A DNA stretch of 64,000 nucleotides from assembly GCF_004519405.1 (NCBI RefSeq), contig NZ_SGWI01000001.1:682001-746000 (forward strand), read 5' to 3'. This DNA is from Pseudomonas sp. BCA17 (GTDB lineage: Bacteria > Pseudomonadota > Gammaproteobacteria > Pseudomonadales > Pseudomonadaceae). The notes below the pieces were generated by a model, which ran no database searches, was not told the DNA's origin, and was given only the letters and a program-made list of their open reading frames with translations. The position numbers and the translations under genes are program-made. Position 1 is the first letter of the stretch. Each line of letters opens with the position of its first letter. Shown here in pieces: positions 4,440 to 55,633 of this stretch.

Positions 4440-6011
4440 ATGAACCTGATCGAAATCCGCGACCTCAGCGTCGCCTTCAGCGGCCAGACCGTGGTGCGCA
4501 ACCTGAGCCTGGATGTACGCCCTGGCGAGTGCCTGGCGCTGGTGGGCGAATCGGGGTCGGGCAAGTCGGTGACGGCCCATTCGATCCTGCAACTGCTGCC
4601 CGAAGCCGGTACGCATACCACAGGTTCCGTAAAGTATCGCGGCCAGGAGTTGATCGGTGCGTCGGCGGCCACCCTGCAAAAGCTGCGAGGCAACCGCATC
4701 GCGATGATCTTCCAGGAGCCGATGACCTCCCTCAACCCGTTGCACAGCATCGAAAAGCAGATCGGCGAAACCCTGTTGTTGCACAAAGGCCTGGGAGGCA
4801 AGGCGGCACAGGCGCGCATCCTCGAATTGCTGGAACTGGTCGGCATCCAAAAGCCCCGGGAACGGCTCAAGGCCTACCCGCACCAGCTCTCCGGCGGCCA
4901 GCGCCAGCGGGTGATGATTGCCATGGCCCTGGCGTGTGAACCGGAACTGCTGATCGCCGACGAACCCACCACCGCGCTGGACGTCACCGTGCAACGCAAG
5001 ATCCTGCTGTTGCTCAAGTCCCTGCAGGAACGCCTGGGCATGTCGCTGCTATTGATCAGCCACGACCTCAACCTGGTACGCAGCATTGCCCAACGGGTGT
5101 GTGTGATGCGCGCCGGGGAAATTGTCGAGCAAGCCGACTGCCAGACCTTGTTCGACGCTCCCCGGCACCCTTACAGCCGTCTGCTGCTGGATGCCGAACC
5201 GGCCGGCGATGCGCTTTGCAGTGATGAGCGCGAAACGGTGCTGCAGGTCAACGACCTGAGCGTGCAGTTCCCTCTCGGCGGCGGCCTGTTCCGACGCAAG
5301 ACCTACCTGCGCGCAGTGGATGGCATCAGCCTCAGCGTACAGCGCGGCAAAACCTTGGGTATCGTCGGTGAGTCAGGCTCGGGCAAGTCCACTCTGGGCC
5401 AGGCGATCCTGCGCCTGCTGGACTCCACCGGCAGCATTCGCTTCCAGGGTGAAGCCCTCGACCCGCTGAATCCTCAGCAGATGCGCCCCTGGCGCAAGCA
5501 GATGCAGGTGGTGTTCCAGGACCCCTACGGCAGCCTCAGCCCACGCATGTCGGTGCAGCAGATCATCAGCGAGGGCCTGGAAGTGCACGCGCCGTGCAGC
5601 CTGGAAGATCGCGACGCCCAGGTGATCCAGGTGCTCAAGGATGTCGGCCTCGACCCTGAGAGCCGACATCGTTACCCCCATGAGTTTTCCGGTGGCCAGC
5701 GCCAACGCATTGCCATCGCCCGCGCCTTGGTGCTCAAGCCTGCGTTGATGCTGCTGGACGAACCCACCTCGGCCCTGGATCGGACAGTGCAGAAGCAGGT
5801 GGTGGCATTGCTGCGCGAGTTGCAGGAAAAATACGGCCTGACCTACCTGTTTATCAGCCATGACTTGGCCGTGGTACGCGCCATGGCCCATGACATGATT
5901 GTGATCAAGGACGGCAAAGTGGTGGAGCGCGGCGCGAGCCACGAAGTGTTCGATGCACCGCAGCATCCGTACACCAAAGAGCTGCTGGCAGCGGCGCACA
6001 TCCCCTTGTAG
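4440..6011 (+). CDS. yejF: Peptide ABC transporter ATPase with two nucleotide-binding domains (YejF type)
   Basis: Energises the Yej importer. The 523-residue protein is a tandem duplication of an ABC ATPase. The first half has Walker A GESGSGKS, signature LSGGQRQRV and Walker B LLIADEPT. The second half has [18 protein letters not shown] and LMLLDEPT. The two halves replace the separate DppD and DppF subunits of other peptide importers. I use ATG 4440; an upstream in-frame TTG at 4434 would add only two residues. It is the last gene of the yejABEF operon, and a REP-type inverted repeat follows the stop directly. Confidence 0.94.
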
Positions 6012-6108
6012 GAGCGAGCTTGCTTGCGAAGAACAGATAGGCGACACGGGGTATCTGGTAGCGCTGCGTTATCGTTGACGGTTTTTCGCGAGCACGCTCG
6101 CTCCTACA
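6007..6108. repeat. REP doublet (REPIN-like) between yejF and the sigma54 activator gene
   Basis: The left arm TGTAGGAGCGAGCTTGC starts inside the last codons of yejF. It is repeated in inverted orientation as GAGCACGCTCGCTCCTACA ending at 6108. The roughly 50-base spacer contains the ATAACG/CGTTATCGTTGACG-like filler often seen in P. fluorescens REP pairs. The element ends 13 bases before the next start codon. Confidence 0.8.
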
Positions 6109-18002: not shown

Positions 18003-18028
18003 GTGGGAGGGGGCTTGCTCCCTCCCAC
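18003..18028. repeat. REP palindrome between ridA and the IclR gene
   Basis: GTGGGAGGG...CCCTCCCAC, a 26-base palindrome of the common fluorescent-pseudomonad type. It lies between ridA (ends 18063) and the regulator (starts 17955) and may lower expression of the distal genes. Confidence 0.7.
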
Positions 18029-24344: not shown

Positions 24345-24368
24345 TGAGGGAGCAGGCTTGCTCCCTCA
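24345..24368. repeat. REP palindrome downstream of sohB
   Basis: TGAGGGAGCAGGCTTGCTCCCTCA, a 24-base near-perfect palindrome of the GAGGGAGC class, 28 bases past the sohB stop. It probably also acts as a transcription stop. Confidence 0.7.
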
Positions 24369-33140: not shown

Positions 33141-35195
33141 ATGAATCACGCTGCCACCACTGTCGACACCCAGTGCATCAACACGATTCGCACCCTGGCC
33201 ATGGACGCTGTACAGAAGGCCAATTCCGGCCACCCCGGCACGCCGATGGGCCTGGCCCCGGTGGGCTATACCTTGTGGAGTCGCTTCCTGCGTTATCACC
33301 CGGAGCAACCCGACTGGCCCAACCGTGACCGGTTTGTGTTGTCGGTGGGGCATGCGTCGATGTTGCTGTATTCGCTGCTGCACCTGGCCGGTGTGGTCGA
33401 GATCGATGCCCACGGCCAACGCTCCGGGGCGCCGGCGATCAGCCTGGACGATATCAAGCAGTTCCGGCAGATGAGCTCCAAGACCCCAGGGCACCCCGAA
33501 TACCGCATGACCACCGGTGTGGAAACCACCACCGGCCCGCTCGGCCAGGGCTGCGCCAACAGCGTGGGCATGGCCATGGCCGAACGCTGGCTGGCCAAGC
33601 GTTTCAATCGTGACGGCCAGGTGCTGTTCGATTACAACGTCTACACCCTGTGTGGTGACGGCGACATGATGGAGGGCATCAGCGGCGAAGCGGCGTCGCT
33701 GGCCGGACACTTGAAGCTGGATAACCTGTGCTGGATCTACGACAACAACACCATCAGCATCGAGGGCCACACTGAGCTGGCGTTCAGCGAGGATGTGATC
33801 AAGCGCTTCCAGGCGTATGGGTGGCACACCCTGCACGTCACCGATGCCAATGATCTGCAGGCACTGAGTACGGCGTTGGCGACCTTCCAGGCCAACACCG
33901 GCGCGCCGACCCTGATCGTGGTCGACAGCGTGATCGGCTATGGCTCGCCCCACAAACACAACACGGCCGCCGCCCATGGCGAACCATTGGGTGAAGAAGA
34001 AATCCGCCTGACCAAGGCCGCCTATGGCTGGCCGCAGGACTCCAGCTTCCTGGTGCCCGATGAAGCGCGTACGGCGTTGCGCGACGCGCTGCTCGAACGC
34101 GCCGAACCTTTGTTCAGCCAATGGAACCAGACCCTGTCCCAGCTTGACCCGCAGTTGGCCGACGAACTCAAACGCATGCGCGCCGGGGAAATGCCCGCAC
34201 AGTGGCAGGCCGACCTGCCGGACTTCGCGGCGGATGCCAAGGGCGTCGCCAGCCGGGCGTCGGGCGGCGAGGTGCTGAACGCTTTTGCCCAACACATCCC
34301 TTGGCTGCTCGGCGGTTCGGCGGATTTGTCGCCCTCGACCAAGACCAACCTCACCTTTGACGGCGCCGGGCGTTTCAGCGCCGCCGACTACAGCGGGCGC
34401 AACCTGCATTTTGGTATTCGTGAACACGCCATGGGCGCCATCGCCAACGGCATGGCGCTCTCGTACCTGCGGCCCTACACCTCGACGTTCCTGGTGTTCA
34501 GCGATTACATGAAACCGCCGATCCGTCTGGCGGCGATCATGGAGTTGCCGGTGGTGTTCGTGTTTACCCACGACTCGATCGGCGTGGGCGAAGACGGGCC
34601 GACGCACCAGCCCATCGAGCACCTCACGCAATTGCGGGCCACGCCGGGCTTGCTGACCCTGCGCCCCGGCGACGCCAATGAAACCCTGGAACTGTGGAAG
34701 GTTGCCCTGGCGCAAACCCACAGGCCCAGCTGCGTGGTGCTGTCGCGCCAGGCCCTGCCGACCCTGGACCGTACGCAGTATGCAAGCGCCTCGGGCGCGG
34801 CCAAGGGCGCTTATGTGCTGGCGGGCGCAGACCATCCCGAAGTCCTGCTATTGGCGACCGGCAGTGAAGTCAGCCTTGCGGTGGCGGCCTATGAGCAGTT
34901 GAAAAGCGAAGGCATTGCCGCGCAGGTGGTTTCAATGCCCAGCTGGGAACTGTTTGAAGAACAGGACCAACGCTATCGCGACTCTGTGTTGCCACCCGCG
35001 GTGAAGGCTCGGGTAGCGATGGAACAGGCAGGCCCCCTGGGTTGGGACCGCTATGTCGGGCAGACCGGGGCCAAAGTGGTGATGAACAGCTTCGGGGCTT
35101 CGGCGCCGTTGGCCAAGTTGCAGGAGAAGTTCGGGTTTACGGTGGAGAATGTGGTGAAACTGGCCAAGCAGCAGATCCAACTGGCGCAACGCTGA
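33141..35195 (+). CDS. tkt: Transketolase
   Basis: Transfers two-carbon units in the pentose phosphate pathway using thiamine diphosphate. The 684 residues contain the N-terminal IRTLAMDAVQKANSGHPGTPMG motif, the cofactor-binding GDGDMMEGISGEA with its later NNT, and DSIGVGEDGPTHQPIEHL in the pyrimidine domain. It is about 20 residues longer than E. coli transketolase. I start at ATG 33141, which follows GAGGGAGACC. It has no gapdh or pgk neighbour, so it is probably a second copy beside the usual Calvin/ED-linked tktA. That is inference. Confidence 0.94.
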   Translation: MNHAATTVDTQCINTIRTLAMDAVQKANSGHPGTPMGLAPVGYTLWSRFLRYHPEQPDWPNRDRFVLSVGHASMLLYSLLHLAGVVEIDAHGQRSGAPAISLDDIKQFRQMSSKTPGHPEYRMTTGVETTTGPLGQGCANSVGMAMAERWLAKRFNRDGQVLFDYNVYTLCGDGDMMEGISGEAASLAGHLKLDNLCWIYDNNTISIEGHTELAFSEDVIKRFQAYGWHTLHVTDANDLQALSTALATFQANTGAPTLIVVDSVIGYGSPHKHNTAAAHGEPLGEEEIRLTKAAYGWPQDSSFLVPDEARTALRDALLERAEPLFSQWNQTLSQLDPQLADELKRMRAGEMPAQWQADLPDFAADAKGVASRASGGEVLNAFAQHIPWLLGGSADLSPSTKTNLTFDGAGRFSAADYSGRNLHFGIREHAMGAIANGMALSYLRPYTSTFLVFSDYMKPPIRLAAIMELPVVFVFTHDSIGVGEDGPTHQPIEHLTQLRATPGLLTLRPGDANETLELWKVALAQTHRPSCVVLSRQALPTLDRTQYASASGAAKGAYVLAGADHPEVLLLATGSEVSLAVAAYEQLKSEGIAAQVVSMPSWELFEEQDQRYRDSVLPPAVKARVAMEQAGPLGWDRYVGQTGAKVVMNSFGASAPLAKLQEKFGFTVENVVKLAKQQIQLAQR

Positions 35196-35216
35196 AATTG
35201 GGCGGGACACCGCCTG

Positions 35217-35393
35217 ATGCCAGTCAGTTAAGAAGAAGAAAGGCTAAAAAGTAACCTGTGGCGAGGGAGCTTGCTCCCGTTGGACTGCGCAGCAGTCCCA
35301 TTCTTTGTAAACAAAGAGCGGGGCCGCTTCGCGGCCCAACGGGAGCAAGCTCCCTCGCCACACATACAGCGTTCACCCCTAACTGACTGGCAT
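35217..35393. repeat. Flanking inverted repeat around the cloverleaf repeat
   Basis: ATGCCAGTCAGTTA (35217-35230) and its exact complement TAACTGACTGGCAT (35380-35393) bracket the element at 35257-35362. The core GCCAGTCAGTTA occurs a third time at 55578-55589. The 14-base arms are perfect. Confidence 0.7.
35257..35362. repeat. Cloverleaf-shaped intergenic repeat, copy 1
   Basis: Perfect 25-base inverted arms (35257-35281 and 35338-35362) enclose three perfect hairpins: GGACTGC-GCA-GCAGTCC (35282-35298), TCTTTGT-AA-ACAAAGA (35302-35317) and GGGCCGC-TTC-GCGGCCC (35321-35337). The arms belong to the GAGGGAGC repeat class. It lies between the convergent transketolase and uvrA-like genes. A diverged copy is at 52811-52919. 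Similar intergenic families were described in P. fluorescens genomes. Confidence 0.85.
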
Positions 35394-35422
35394 TAGGGAC
35401 ACCGCTCCTACAGACGGCGACG

Positions 35423-37942
35423 TCAGGCGAGTTCCCGTGCCAGGAAAGGTGCGGTACGGCTGGTCTTGCTCCTGGCGACTTTCTGCGGCGTACCGCAAGC
35501 CACCACACGCCCACCTTGATCCCCCGCCCCTGGTCCGATATCGATCACCCAATCACTCTGGGCCACCACGCGCATTTCATGTTCCACCACAACTACTGTG
35601 TGCCCTGCATCCACCAACTGATTCAGTTGGCTGAGCAACCGGTCGACATCCCGCGGATGCAGCCCGGTGGTCGGCTCATCCAGCACATACAAGGTGGCGC
35701 CCCGGGCATTGCGTTGCAACTCGGTCGCCAGTTTGATGCGTTGCGCTTCGCCGCCCGATAACTCCGTCGCCGGCTGGCCCAGGCGCAAATAGCCCAGGCC
35801 GATATCCCGCAGCACCTGCAAGGAACGCAACACCCCTGGCTGCTCGGCAAACACGTCCACCGCCTGCTCCACCGTCAGCCCCAGCACCTGGGCGATGTTC
35901 AAGCCCTGCCACTGAATCGCCAGGGTCTCCGGGTTGTAGCGTGCGCCATGGCACGTCGGGCACGGCGCGTATACGCTGGGCATGAACAACAACTCGACGC
36001 TGACAAAGCCTTCGCCTTCGCAGTTCGGGCAGCGGCCCTTGGCGACGTTGAAGGAAAACTGTCCGGCATCGTAATGACGCTTCTTCGCGGCCGGCGTGGC
36101 AGCGAAGAGTTTGCGCACGTTGTCGAACAGCCCGGTGTAGGTCGCCAGGTTGGAACGCGGGGTGCGACCGATAGGTTTCTGATCCACCTGCACCAGGCGG
36201 CGAATGTGTTCCAGCCCGCCGGCAATGCGGCCGCCGCTCGCTTGCGGTGTGTCATCTTCCAGGCTCGGTTCTTCGTCGTTTTCCACCACGCGGCCCAGGC
36301 CCATGCCCACCAGTTCCAGCAGCGCCTGGCTGACCAGGCTGGATTTACCCGAGCCGGAAATACCGGTCACCGCCGTGAAGCAGCCCAGGGGGAAATCCAC
36401 GTCCAGCTCGTTGAGGTTGTTGCGTGTCACACCTTCGAGTTTCAGCCAGCCGCTGGGCTCACGGCGCGGCTGACTCGGCGCGCGCCGTTCGGCGAACAGA
36501 TACTCACGGGTCTGCGACGCCTGCACCTCGGCCAAACCGGCAGGCGGCCCGCTGTACAGCACCTGCCCACCGTGTTCGCCGGCCGCCGGGCCTACGTCGA
36601 TCAACCAGTCGGCGCGGCGCATGGTTTCCAGGTCGTGCTCCACCACGAACAACGAATTGCCCGCGGCCTTCAAGCGCTCCAATGCGGTGAACAATGCTTC
36701 GCCATCCGCCGGGTGCAAGCCGGCCGAAGGCTCATCCAGCACATAGATCACACCGAACAACTGCGAACCCAATTGAGTCGCCAGGCGCAGGCGCTGCAAC
36801 TCACCGGACGACAGGGTCGGTGTGCTGCGCTCCAGGGACAGATAGCCCAGGCCCAATTCGATCAAGGTGCTGACCCGCTCCAGCAGATCCTCGGCGATGC
36901 GCTGGGCAGCCAGGCGCTTTTCCACCGACAGTTTCATCTTGTCCTGCCCCGCCGCTACCGGGCGCAACAGCTCGGCCAACCGGGACAACGACAACTGCGA
37001 CAACTCACCGATATCCACCCCGGCAAACTTCACCGACAGCGCCGCCTGGTTCAGCCGTTTGCCATCGCACGATGGGCAGGCGCTGCCCTGCATGAACTGC
37101 GAGACGCGCTTTTTCATCAGCGCGCTTTGGGTGTGGGTGAAGGTATGCAGAATGTAGCGCCGCGCACCACTGAAGGTGCCCTGATAGCTCGGCTCCAGCT
37201 TGCGCTTGAGGGCATCGCGGGTCTGTTCGGGGGTGAAGCCGGCGTACACCGGTACGGTCGGGGTTTCCTCGGTGAACAAAATCCAGTCGCGCTGTTTTTT
37301 CGGCAGGTCACGCCAGGGAATATCGACGTCGTAGCCCAGCGTCACCAGGATGTCGCGCAGGTTCTGGCCCTGCCACGCCAGCGGCCAGGACGCTACCGCA
37401 CGCTGGCGGATGGTCAGCGAGGGATCGGGCACCATCAGCGCCTCGGTCACCTCATACACGCGGCCCAGGCCGTGGCATTGCGGGCAGGCACCCTGGGGCA
37501 GGTTCGGCGAAAAGTCTTCGGCGTACAGCATTGCCTGCCCGGGCGGGTAGCTGCCGGCGCGGGAGTACAACATGCGGATCAGGCTCGACAGCGTGGTCAC
37601 GCTGCCCACCGATGAACGCGCACTCGGCGTGCCACGTTGCTGTTGCAGGGCCACGGCCGGGGGCAGGCCCTCGATGCTGTCCACATCCGGTACGCCGACC
37701 TGATCAATCAGGCGCCGTGCATACGGTGCCACTGACTCGAAGTAGCGGCGCTGAGCCTCGGCATACACCGTGGAAAATGCCAGGGACGACTTGCCGGAGC
37801 CGGATACGCCCGTGAACACCACCAGGGCGTCCCGGGGAATGTCCACATCGACATTGCGCAGGTTATGTTCGCGAGCGCCACGCACCCGGACGAAGCCAAC
37901 CTGTTCGGCAAAAAGCCTGGGAGTCTTGTGCTGTGACGTCAT
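35423..37942 (-). CDS. UvrA-like ABC ATPase (UvrA2-type excinuclease subunit)
   Basis: DNA-damage-binding ATPase related to UvrA, 839 residues, about 100 shorter than canonical UvrA. It has two ABC modules: Walker A GVSGSGKSS (about residue 45) and GISGSGKSS (about 530), two signatures ending in LSSGELQRL and LSGGEAQRI, and zinc cysteines in CPQCHGLG, CPNCEGEG and CPTCHGAR. The size and the ALQQQRGTPSARSS sequence fit the UvrA2/drug-resistance subfamily that lacks part of the UvrB-binding region. Its ATG overlaps the stop of the hybrid kinase gene by four bases (ATGA), so the two are translationally coupled. Confidence 0.9.
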   Translation of the reverse strand: MTSQHKTPRLFAEQVGFVRVRGAREHNLRNVDVDIPRDALVVFTGVSGSGKSSLAFSTVYAEAQRRYFESVAPYARRLIDQVGVPDVDSIEGLPPAVALQQQRGTPSARSSVGSVTTLSSLIRMLYSRAGSYPPGQAMLYAEDFSPNLPQGACPQCHGLGRVYEVTEALMVPDPSLTIRQRAVASWPLAWQGQNLRDILVTLGYDVDIPWRDLPKKQRDWILFTEETPTVPVYAGFTPEQTRDALKRKLEPSYQGTFSGARRYILHTFTHTQSALMKKRVSQFMQGSACPSCDGKRLNQAALSVKFAGVDIGELSQLSLSRLAELLRPVAAGQDKMKLSVEKRLAAQRIAEDLLERVSTLIELGLGYLSLERSTPTLSSGELQRLRLATQLGSQLFGVIYVLDEPSAGLHPADGEALFTALERLKAAGNSLFVVEHDLETMRRADWLIDVGPAAGEHGGQVLYSGPPAGLAEVQASQTREYLFAERRAPSQPRREPSGWLKLEGVTRNNLNELDVDFPLGCFTAVTGISGSGKSSLVSQALLELVGMGLGRVVENDEEPSLEDDTPQASGGRIAGGLEHIRRLVQVDQKPIGRTPRSNLATYTGLFDNVRKLFAATPAAKKRHYDAGQFSFNVAKGRCPNCEGEGFVSVELLFMPSVYAPCPTCHGARYNPETLAIQWQGLNIAQVLGLTVEQAVDVFAEQPGVLRSLQVLRDIGLGYLRLGQPATELSGGEAQRIKLATELQRNARGATLYVLDEPTTGLHPRDVDRLLSQLNQLVDAGHTVVVVEHEMRVVAQSDWVIDIGPGAGDQGGRVVACGTPQKVARSKTSRTAPFLARELA

Positions 37943-52810: not shown

Positions 52811-52919
52811 CTGTGACGAGGGAGCGTGCTCCCGCTGGACTGCGTAGCAGTCCCATTCTTTGCAAAGCAAAAGCCGGGGCCGCTTCGCGACCCGGCGGGA
52901 GCAAGCTCCCTCGCCACAG
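52811..52919. repeat. Cloverleaf-shaped intergenic repeat, copy 2
   Basis: Same order of parts as the element at 35257-35362: outer arms of the GAGGGAGC class, GGACTGC-GTA-GCAGTCC, a TCTTTGCAAAGCAAAAG segment, and GGGGCCGC-TTC-GCGACCC. The arms carry a few substitutions and some pairs in the third hairpin are changed. It follows the pfpI-like gene. Confidence 0.8.
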
Positions 52920-55541: not shown

Positions 55542-55603
55542 CCTGATGCAGCCTATGTGGGAGGGAGCTTGCCCTAAGCCAGTCAGTTAGCCGCAAGTGC
55601 CGT

Positions 55604-55633
55604 CTGTAGGAGCGAGCAAGCTCGCTCCTACAG
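55604..55633. repeat. Perfect REP hairpin between convergent genes
   Basis: CTGTAGGAGCGAGC-AA-GCTCGCTCCTACAG: a perfect 14-base stem with a two-base loop, filling the gap between PCu(A)C and the cupin gene. It likely acts as a two-way terminator. The unit GCCAGTCAGTTAG lies 14 bases before it. Confidence 0.8.

Follow-up and report, generated by a model that had tools for sequence, protein, structure and literature searches.

The closest described relatives of the element reported here are the GIII REPINs of Pseudomonas fluorescens SBW25, which likewise carry the 16-mer GAGGGAGCTTGCTCCC, form inverted doublets, are present in many extragenic copies and have a RAYT near REPIN clusters (Bertels and Rainey 2011, PMC3116915). 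That study gives an alignment and a structure for GI and is not known to describe GNA tips, covariation in GIII arms or a link to a RAYT clade. The legend of its figure S11 proposes that a stable hairpin escapes the RAYT and that a less stable "clover" is processed; the shape described here is compared with the clover through this legend, and the two may differ in detail. The REP of the present element is identical to that of the PF17 class of Nunvar et al. (2013, PMC3686654), given there as GTGGCGAGGGAGCTTGCTCCCG(CT), whose cognate RAYT was defined by its flanking REPs. Overabundant REPs without their RAYT were already described in the same paper, which concerns the REP rather than the spacer arms.

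Two further systems are informative. The CGTC-3 dimers of A. tumefaciens (GTAG/CGTC paper, BMC Genomics 2013, PMC3733652) also have two stem-loops at the ends of the spacer, but they belong to another repeat family and the text on them contains neither a covariation test nor GNA tips; a preference for heterodimers is discussed there. The TnpAREP/REP systems of E. coli, S. maltophilia and Marinomonas display single-stranded, strand-specific recognition of GTAG and a hairpin together with cleavage at CT, and the substrates described for them, unlike the REPIN studied here, have no second hairpin (PMC8266576). The REPIN class GIII/PF17 and the hairpin-versus-clover proposal of 2011 are thus already known. 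A search of titles and abstracts (many subscription papers and the supplements were outside its scope) found no paper that connects REPINs with GNA mini-hairpins or with covariation of arms, and the literature searched contained no test of the two folds proposed in 2011. To the extent searched, novelty lies in the evidence of covariation, in the GNA tips and in the association of arms with a RAYT clade. The preferred reading, to which a probability of roughly 70% is assigned, is that the locus is a GIII/PF17 REPIN with self-folding arms that would form a cloverleaf or a row of hairpins in single-stranded DNA and hold the element open for the RAYT.

A GIII/PF17 REPIN in Pseudomonas sp. BCA17

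The window, that is, the whole stretch of 64,000 nucleotides that was analysed, contains two copies of the element in the BCA17 genome with the following features (positions are those of the window).

35257-35362, no strand: REPIN copy 1 (GIII/PF17 class), whole element, assigned from sequence, folding, copy count and published class
35256-35257, plus strand: CT dinucleotide just 5' of GTGG, a putative RAYT cleavage/insertion junction; the far end is GT
35258-35279, plus strand: REP 1, GTGGCGAGGGAGCTTGCTCCCG (PF17)
35340-35361, minus strand: REP 2, inverted
35257-35281, plus strand: outer stem (25 bp), 5' side
35338-35362, plus strand: outer stem (25 bp), 3' side
35282-35298, plus strand: arm H1, stem of 7 bp, loop GCA, tip GCGCAGC
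about 35302-35317, no strand: arm H2, central hairpin, from folding
35321-35337, minus strand: arm H3, stem of 7 bp; read on the minus strand, loop GAA and tip GCGAAGC
52811-52919, no strand: REPIN copy 2, diverged, with CT at each end
52837-52853, plus strand: arm H1 of copy 2, tip GCGTAGC
52877-52893, minus strand: arm H3 of copy 2, in which a single pair departs from Watson-Crick pairing (C.A as read on the plus strand, G.T as read on the minus strand)

Copy 1 belongs by its sequence to a published REPIN class, GIII/PF17: it combines the GTGG tetranucleotide with a palindrome and the 16-mer, and two inverted REPs enclose a short spacer able to fold. Positions 35257-35281 pair with 35338-35362 and the hairpins H1, H2 and H3 lie inside, so that the reading in the initial annotation of an entirely self-complementary stretch with a 25-bp stem and three hairpins is confirmed by sequence and folding. 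Its judgement that the structure goes beyond a simple REP is borne out as well, though the element belongs to a published class. The central hairpin H2 is not a general feature because the length of the centre between the arms varies from 5 to 44 nt across 159 REPINs. The diverged copy 2, also recognized in the initial annotation, has the same order of arms. Compared with copy 1, a T-A pair close to the junction is replaced by C-G, a compensated change, and one loop reads GTA in place of GCA. Changes without compensation are T.G adjoining the junction, C.A in H3 as read on the plus strand, A.C within the outer stem and an altered REP loop. The RNA folding z-scores of the two copies are -13.8 and -9.9, with none of 200 shuffles folding equally well.

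The initial annotation had proposed counting the copies in the genome. The 16-mer is found 210 times as an exact copy in the BCA17 genome, and its reversed control is found 0 times. Within the window, 16 matches to the REP 16-mer were identified at up to three mismatches (0.98 expected). A total of 66 places in the genome match one REPIN pattern and near-identical REPIN copies are present among the genomic copies. The high-copy element is extragenic as judged from the two window copies, both of which lie outside the neighbouring genes. The full REPIN pattern occurs in 28 out of 149 genomes of the genus (BCA17 is among the 149), and a search of genome contigs for the exact BCA17-type core returned 0 stretches, the BCA17 genome itself possibly being outside that search.

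Several arrangements of REPs and REPINs were observed in addition. Tandem arrays of REPIN plus flank with a period of about 193 bp are present on BCA17 contigs C3 (28771-29911 and 56516-57380) and C1 (1169738-1170408), and REPIN pairs about 430-440 bp apart are found at three places (C25:350855/351292, C25:330718/331159 and C12:411198/411627). Three BCA17 contigs (C1, C2 and C12) have a REP within their first 45 bases. The window also contains a REPIN of another, PF8-like kind (6011-6104, 94 nt) without a GNA tip near its REPs, and single or degraded REP-like palindromes at 18007-18024, 24348-24365 and 55561-55627.

Copy 1 is located between converging transketolase and uvrA-like genes. A search with the transketolase end gave matches in 6 out of 38 genomes, BCA17 being one of the six, and a PF17-like REP (up to three mismatches) is absent from all five other transketolase loci (about 3.3 kb each). 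Two of these loci (L249 and L250, 82% identity) carry a GI/PF1-type REPIN between the same transketolase and uvrA-like genes, each consisting of one good and one altered PF1 REP, and their genomes contain 162 and 47 matches to the GI pattern per strand, respectively. The remaining three loci (73-74% identity) have a different sequence 3' of transketolase. Judged from this comparison of sequences among relatives, copy 1 was likely inserted in the BCA17 lineage, at a place that tolerates REPINs.

Covariation within the spacer arms

A set of 159 distinct REPINs with exact REP cores was analysed for covariation. It consists of 29 REPINs from BCA17 (exact cores in the window and in the fetched loci of this genome, a subset of all copies) and 130 from relatives (from 100 loci in eight genomes, taken among the matches listed, and 30 loci of the search itself). 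Alignment was unnecessary because the arms stand at a fixed distance from the REP. The search pattern fixed GNTGG beside one REP, which by construction puts G at stem positions 1 and 2 of the arm concerned.

The initial annotation had made its reading depend on whether copies in related genomes preserve pairing in the arms, and the reading survived. Among 160 distinct arms, 1050 out of 1120 local pairs are formed (G-T counted), compared with a mean of 863.2 (sd 9.3) when the halves are partnered anew, and none of 2000 shuffles, which ignore relatedness among the copies, reached as high a value. At the four variable pairs, Watson-Crick pairing is found in 80% of cases within the arm (511/640) versus 37% for the same positions across arms (466/1272), and G-T accounts for 74 of these 640 local pairs. 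The outermost pair of the arm is G-C 100 times, C-G 33 times, T-A 12 times and A-T three times. All seven pairs are present (G-T counted) in 107 of the 160 arms, and 19 distinct 7-bp stems with perfect Watson-Crick pairing were identified. The BCA17 copies alone follow the same trend with less variation (127 out of 133 local pairs, 116.9 expected).

Outside the arms, position 18 of the outer stem agrees across the two halves more often than expected (119/159 versus 93.0; 102/130 versus 96.0 in the relatives), which fits a shared outer stem and may be explained by descent within subfamilies. A locally compensated pair was found in the REP palindromes of 6 out of 27 kinds of unequal REP pairs, too few to tell separate folding of the REPs from joint folding.

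The two arms of a REPIN rarely carry the same stem. This occurs in one of the 130 REPINs of relatives (13.1 expected) and in none of the 29 of BCA17 (10.0 expected), and 0 of 2000 shuffles were as low in each of the two sets. An ancestor whose arms were already unequal accounts for part of this scarcity. That REPs tend to have unequal partners was noted earlier, with protection from degradation as a suggested reason (PMC3733652).

The tip of the arm is constant. The motif GCGNAGC occupies positions 25-31 in 286 out of 318 arms (54/58 in BCA17 and 232/260 in relatives) and its middle base is free. It shares its GC-GNA-GC sequence with the oligonucleotide d(GCGNAGC), in which two or more G-C pairs closing a GNA loop give an unusually stable, nuclease-resistant DNA mini-hairpin, with a Tm of 78 C for GCGAAGC (PMC4686876). 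The published molecule is an oligonucleotide added to aptamers, whereas here the motif is the tip of longer natural arms that may be similarly stable; if the tip is kept under a pairing constraint, the arms would represent a natural use, in a mobile DNA element, of a mini-hairpin that has been described as an oligonucleotide tool (PMC4686876). The strand bearing the motif is the one in which GTGG, REP and arm follow each other 5' to 3', and the opposite arm carries it on the other strand.

Selection is one source of paired arms and mutation is another. Template switching in palindromes can yield compensated changes without selection, when one half of a stem is copied into its partner, and the many perfect or near-perfect palindromes among the arms are what such a process would leave behind. 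Template switching predicts neither the GNA loop nor its strand, and it leaves out the inequality of the two arms and the restriction of arms to one RAYT clade described below. As the sole source of the pairing it is therefore considered unlikely, but it could work jointly with selection.

REPIN classes with arms and their RAYT transposases

The presence of arms was compared among REPIN classes. A local hairpin of at least 6 bp was found in 106 out of 145 PF17 arms, 0 out of 35 GI arms and 1 out of 61 PF8 arms, with 1 to 5% in shuffled arms. Among REPIN-like pairs in the fetched loci, GCGNAGC near the REP is present in 28/30 arms for PF5, 10/10 for PF7 and 22/22 for PF22, and in 0/18 arms of PF8 pairs; in this count, the PF6 and PF1 rows repeat the PF7 pairs and the PF8, PF9 and PF18 rows overlap. 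PF13-like pairs carry the motif in two out of six arms, both belonging to one pair that adjoins a RAYT of the clade with arms.

REP transposases recognize the REP strand but do not bind the complementary strand (PMC8266576). Both RAYTs tested with NCBIfam are REP-associated tyrosine transposases, the sequence search turned up a single relative of known structure (4er8, a TnpArep), and 79 out of 80 loci found with one RAYT protein are labelled Pseudomonas. One of the loci (L267) lies on a metagenome-assembled contig labelled Formivibrio and its RAYT is identical to a Pseudomonas RAYT over the stretch compared; the label is probably a binning error. Exact PF17 REPs are present in the flanks (on one or both sides) of 9 out of 30 RAYT loci of relatives, and all nine rank among the 12 loci closest to the query. 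The three remaining loci of these 12 comprise two with PF22-like REPs and one without a REP of any tested class.

For phylogenetic analysis, RAYTs were selected by similarity to one PF17 RAYT or as the best Pfam matches. In a tree of 47 RAYTs, arms occur in the flanks of 26 out of 28 members of one clade (support 98/98) and of 0 out of 19 outside it. In a second tree of 79 mostly named RAYTs, a branch with support 91/92 separates 61 RAYTs, 58 of which are flanked by arms, from 18 RAYTs of which 0 are, and the arm label requires four changes on the tree versus 18.9 when shuffled, with 0 of 500 shuffles as low. The two sets are not independent because some genomes are common to both. The tree of 47 excludes 27 of 80 loci that had no open reading frame by the rule applied (their flanks are unscored) and six duplicates, and the tree of 79 excludes two of 81 loci. 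An earlier tree of 17 RAYTs, for which 43 of 60 loci were dropped by open reading frame or arm detection, showed no clustering of arms. The rules for arms were then changed to include both strands, to allow G-T pairs and one mismatch and to require a REP-like palindrome, and the arm labels on the two larger trees are consequently not blind. In the second RAYT set, distinct GNA stems that adjoin a REP-like palindrome have all five further pairs in 31 out of 47 cases, compared with 13 out of 189 for those that do not. The residues that differ between the two sides of the RAYT tree are few and mostly conservative, and none is put forward as a recognition residue.

Common descent alone predicts that the cases seen should stem from one RAYT clade, and the arm might accordingly be an inherited passenger of a single REPIN lineage that plays no role in movement. 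Against this, the stems have changed repeatedly with pairing and tip kept, and arms occur with PF5, PF7, PF17 and PF22 REPs, so that a mere passenger is doubtful. A tentative interpretation, which may well prove wrong, is that one RAYT clade uses a substrate of two hairpins (GTGG-REP and a GNA-tipped arm with a drifting, paired stem), with the cloverleaf as the processed state. Cloverleaf REPINs would in that case be a structural class of their own, and the choice between the folds of 2011 would be settled. If the arm does belong to the substrate, REPIN families would need to be defined by REP plus arm. The many natural copies with their drifting, paired arms already amount to a collection of mutants, and the RAYT clade points to the enzyme.

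The initial annotation suggested a search for a linked RAYT transposase. RAYTs flanked by the same REPs are present in relatives, but no PF17-type RAYT was found in the draft assembly of BCA17 (28 contigs). The sole BCA17 RAYT was rejected as the cognate enzyme; it is 58% identical, its flanks lack a PF17 REP and it is placed outside the clade with arms. The cognate RAYT may have been lost from the BCA17 lineage, or its absence may reflect a gap in the assembly because there are 28 contigs, three of which begin with a REP. Two other genomes rich in PF17 REPINs fit less simply: in G049 (20 and 27 pattern matches) the RAYT inspected is accompanied by PF7 REPs, and in G005 (18 and 16 pattern matches) the one RAYT inspected has no PF17 REP beside it.

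Alternative folds, junctions and a proposed mechanism

REPINs have been published as hairpins with compensatory changes (PMC3116915), and the element could be an ordinary REPIN of which the conserved shape is one long hairpin, local arms being a by-product of GC-rich palindromic words within an inverted repeat. Folding energies give this explanation some weight. With RNA parameters the long hairpin is preferred for the whole of copy 1, and for its 94-nt core it is better than the four-arm shape (-76.7 versus -70.2 kcal/mol). With DNA parameters the four-arm shape is the minimum for the same core (-42.3 versus -40.0 kcal/mol for the long hairpin), as it is for 17 of the 29 BCA17 REPINs (long hairpin 7, mixed 5). 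Among the 130 REPINs of relatives the cloverleaf is the DNA minimum in only 39, with 63 long and 28 mixed, and local arms are energetically better with DNA parameters in 56 of these 130 and in 19 of the 29 from BCA17. At 74% of arm positions the two arms could pair with each other, which also speaks against the cloverleaf.

The covariation points in the other direction. The variable arm positions pair within the arm far more often than across arms, cross-arm pairs are below the number obtained by random re-partnering (1989 versus 2120.7, sd 16.2) and near random or slightly below it within classes of equal first letter, identical arms are nearly absent, and GI and PF8 REPINs have no local arms. 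The cross-pairing test gave z = -1.1 for GI (18 REPINs) and z = -2.4 for PF8 (32 REPINs), and it has no positive control because GI, taken as a long hairpin, is not above random. The PF17 REPINs do not behave as a GI-like long-hairpin class with cross-paired halves and no local hairpins, although cross pairing is often the computed minimum nonetheless. Energy alone is thus indecisive and local covariation decides for self-paired arms; the long hairpin as the conserved shape is improbable. The data favour a clover-type fold for the GIII/PF17 class, and that the RAYT needs the clover is a conjecture. The initial annotation placed the four-arm shape in DNA or RNA; it is the minimum with DNA parameters only, and the shape therefore belongs to DNA more than to RNA.

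A role of the arms in RNA, as terminators or stabilizers of 3' ends between convergent genes, would agree with the position of copy 1 between two converging genes, with the terminator-like scores of H1 and H3 (2 versus 0.6 in shuffles), with a T-run after an arm in 17 out of 29 BCA17 copies (3.0 expected) and with the bias towards placement between gene tails in P. fluorescens (PMC2718517). Yet T-runs are not clearly enriched in relatives (53/130 versus 45.8), tail-to-tail placement is also compatible with insertion where it is least harmful, a terminator would have no need of a GNA triloop, which is likely to be special in DNA, and the RAYT-clade link is left unexplained; this role is accordingly quite unlikely. 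RNA function in general, as raised in the initial annotation, is unsupported given the RNA folding preference, 0 Rfam matches above the gathering score in the window and 0 tRNA genes predicted by ARAGORN at 35000-35600, and "tRNA-like" holds for the general outline but not for tRNA identity.

The preferred reading of self-folding arms suggests the following course of events. The two inverted REPs would constitute a non-autonomous element that is copied in trans by the RAYT, a single-strand tyrosine transposase, and each half is a module of GTGG, REP hairpin and an arm whose 7-bp stem varies with compensation and ends in a GC-GNA-GC tip. When the DNA is single-stranded, as on the lagging strand, an arm would pair internally and not with its partner, giving a cloverleaf if the REPs pair together or a row of hairpins if they fold separately. 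The arms would snap into mini-hairpins and prevent closure into one long hairpin, keeping the element open and strand-specific, so that the GTGG-REP hairpins are offered to the RAYT, which would cut at CT and transfer the strand, possibly in contact with the arms or in dependence on them. The self-folding arms might also keep the inverted repeat of about 100 nt from becoming a perfect palindrome.

TnpAREP enzymes cleave at CT in vitro (PMC8266576). CT is located directly 5' of GTGG at 44 out of 70 BCA17 REPIN ends and 40 out of 80 others, and T is in the last place before GTGG at 68/70 and 65/80 ends, respectively, counts that are not all independent because array copies share flanks. Copy 2 has CT at both ends and copy 1 at one. 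The mobilisation suspected in the initial annotation is supported indirectly by these junctions together with the copy number, the near-identical copies, the REPIN class, the RAYTs with matching REPs in relatives and the other REPIN at the insertion site in two relatives.

A further CT junction was observed in relatives. Examples of PF17-clade RAYTs are that of P. yamanorum, with an open frame of 164 codons, and PFLU2165 of SBW25. The REPINs beside the PF17 RAYT of P. yamanorum (genome G048, locus L099, at about 413-545 and 1140-1450) have tails of GTGGNGAGGGAGCTTGCT, 18-bp head-to-tail units that correspond to the 5' part of the REP up to the inner CT and are joined with CT directly followed by GTGG. 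A 25-base pattern that spans the tail junction has 61, 47 and 13 matches in the three genomes (G048, G059 and G095) whose PF17 RAYTs are the closest; elsewhere it occurs once in each of four genomes and in none of the other 142 out of 149, BCA17 being among the 142. The GTGGNGAGGGAGCTTGCT tails look like the footprint of repeated RAYT cleavage at CT.
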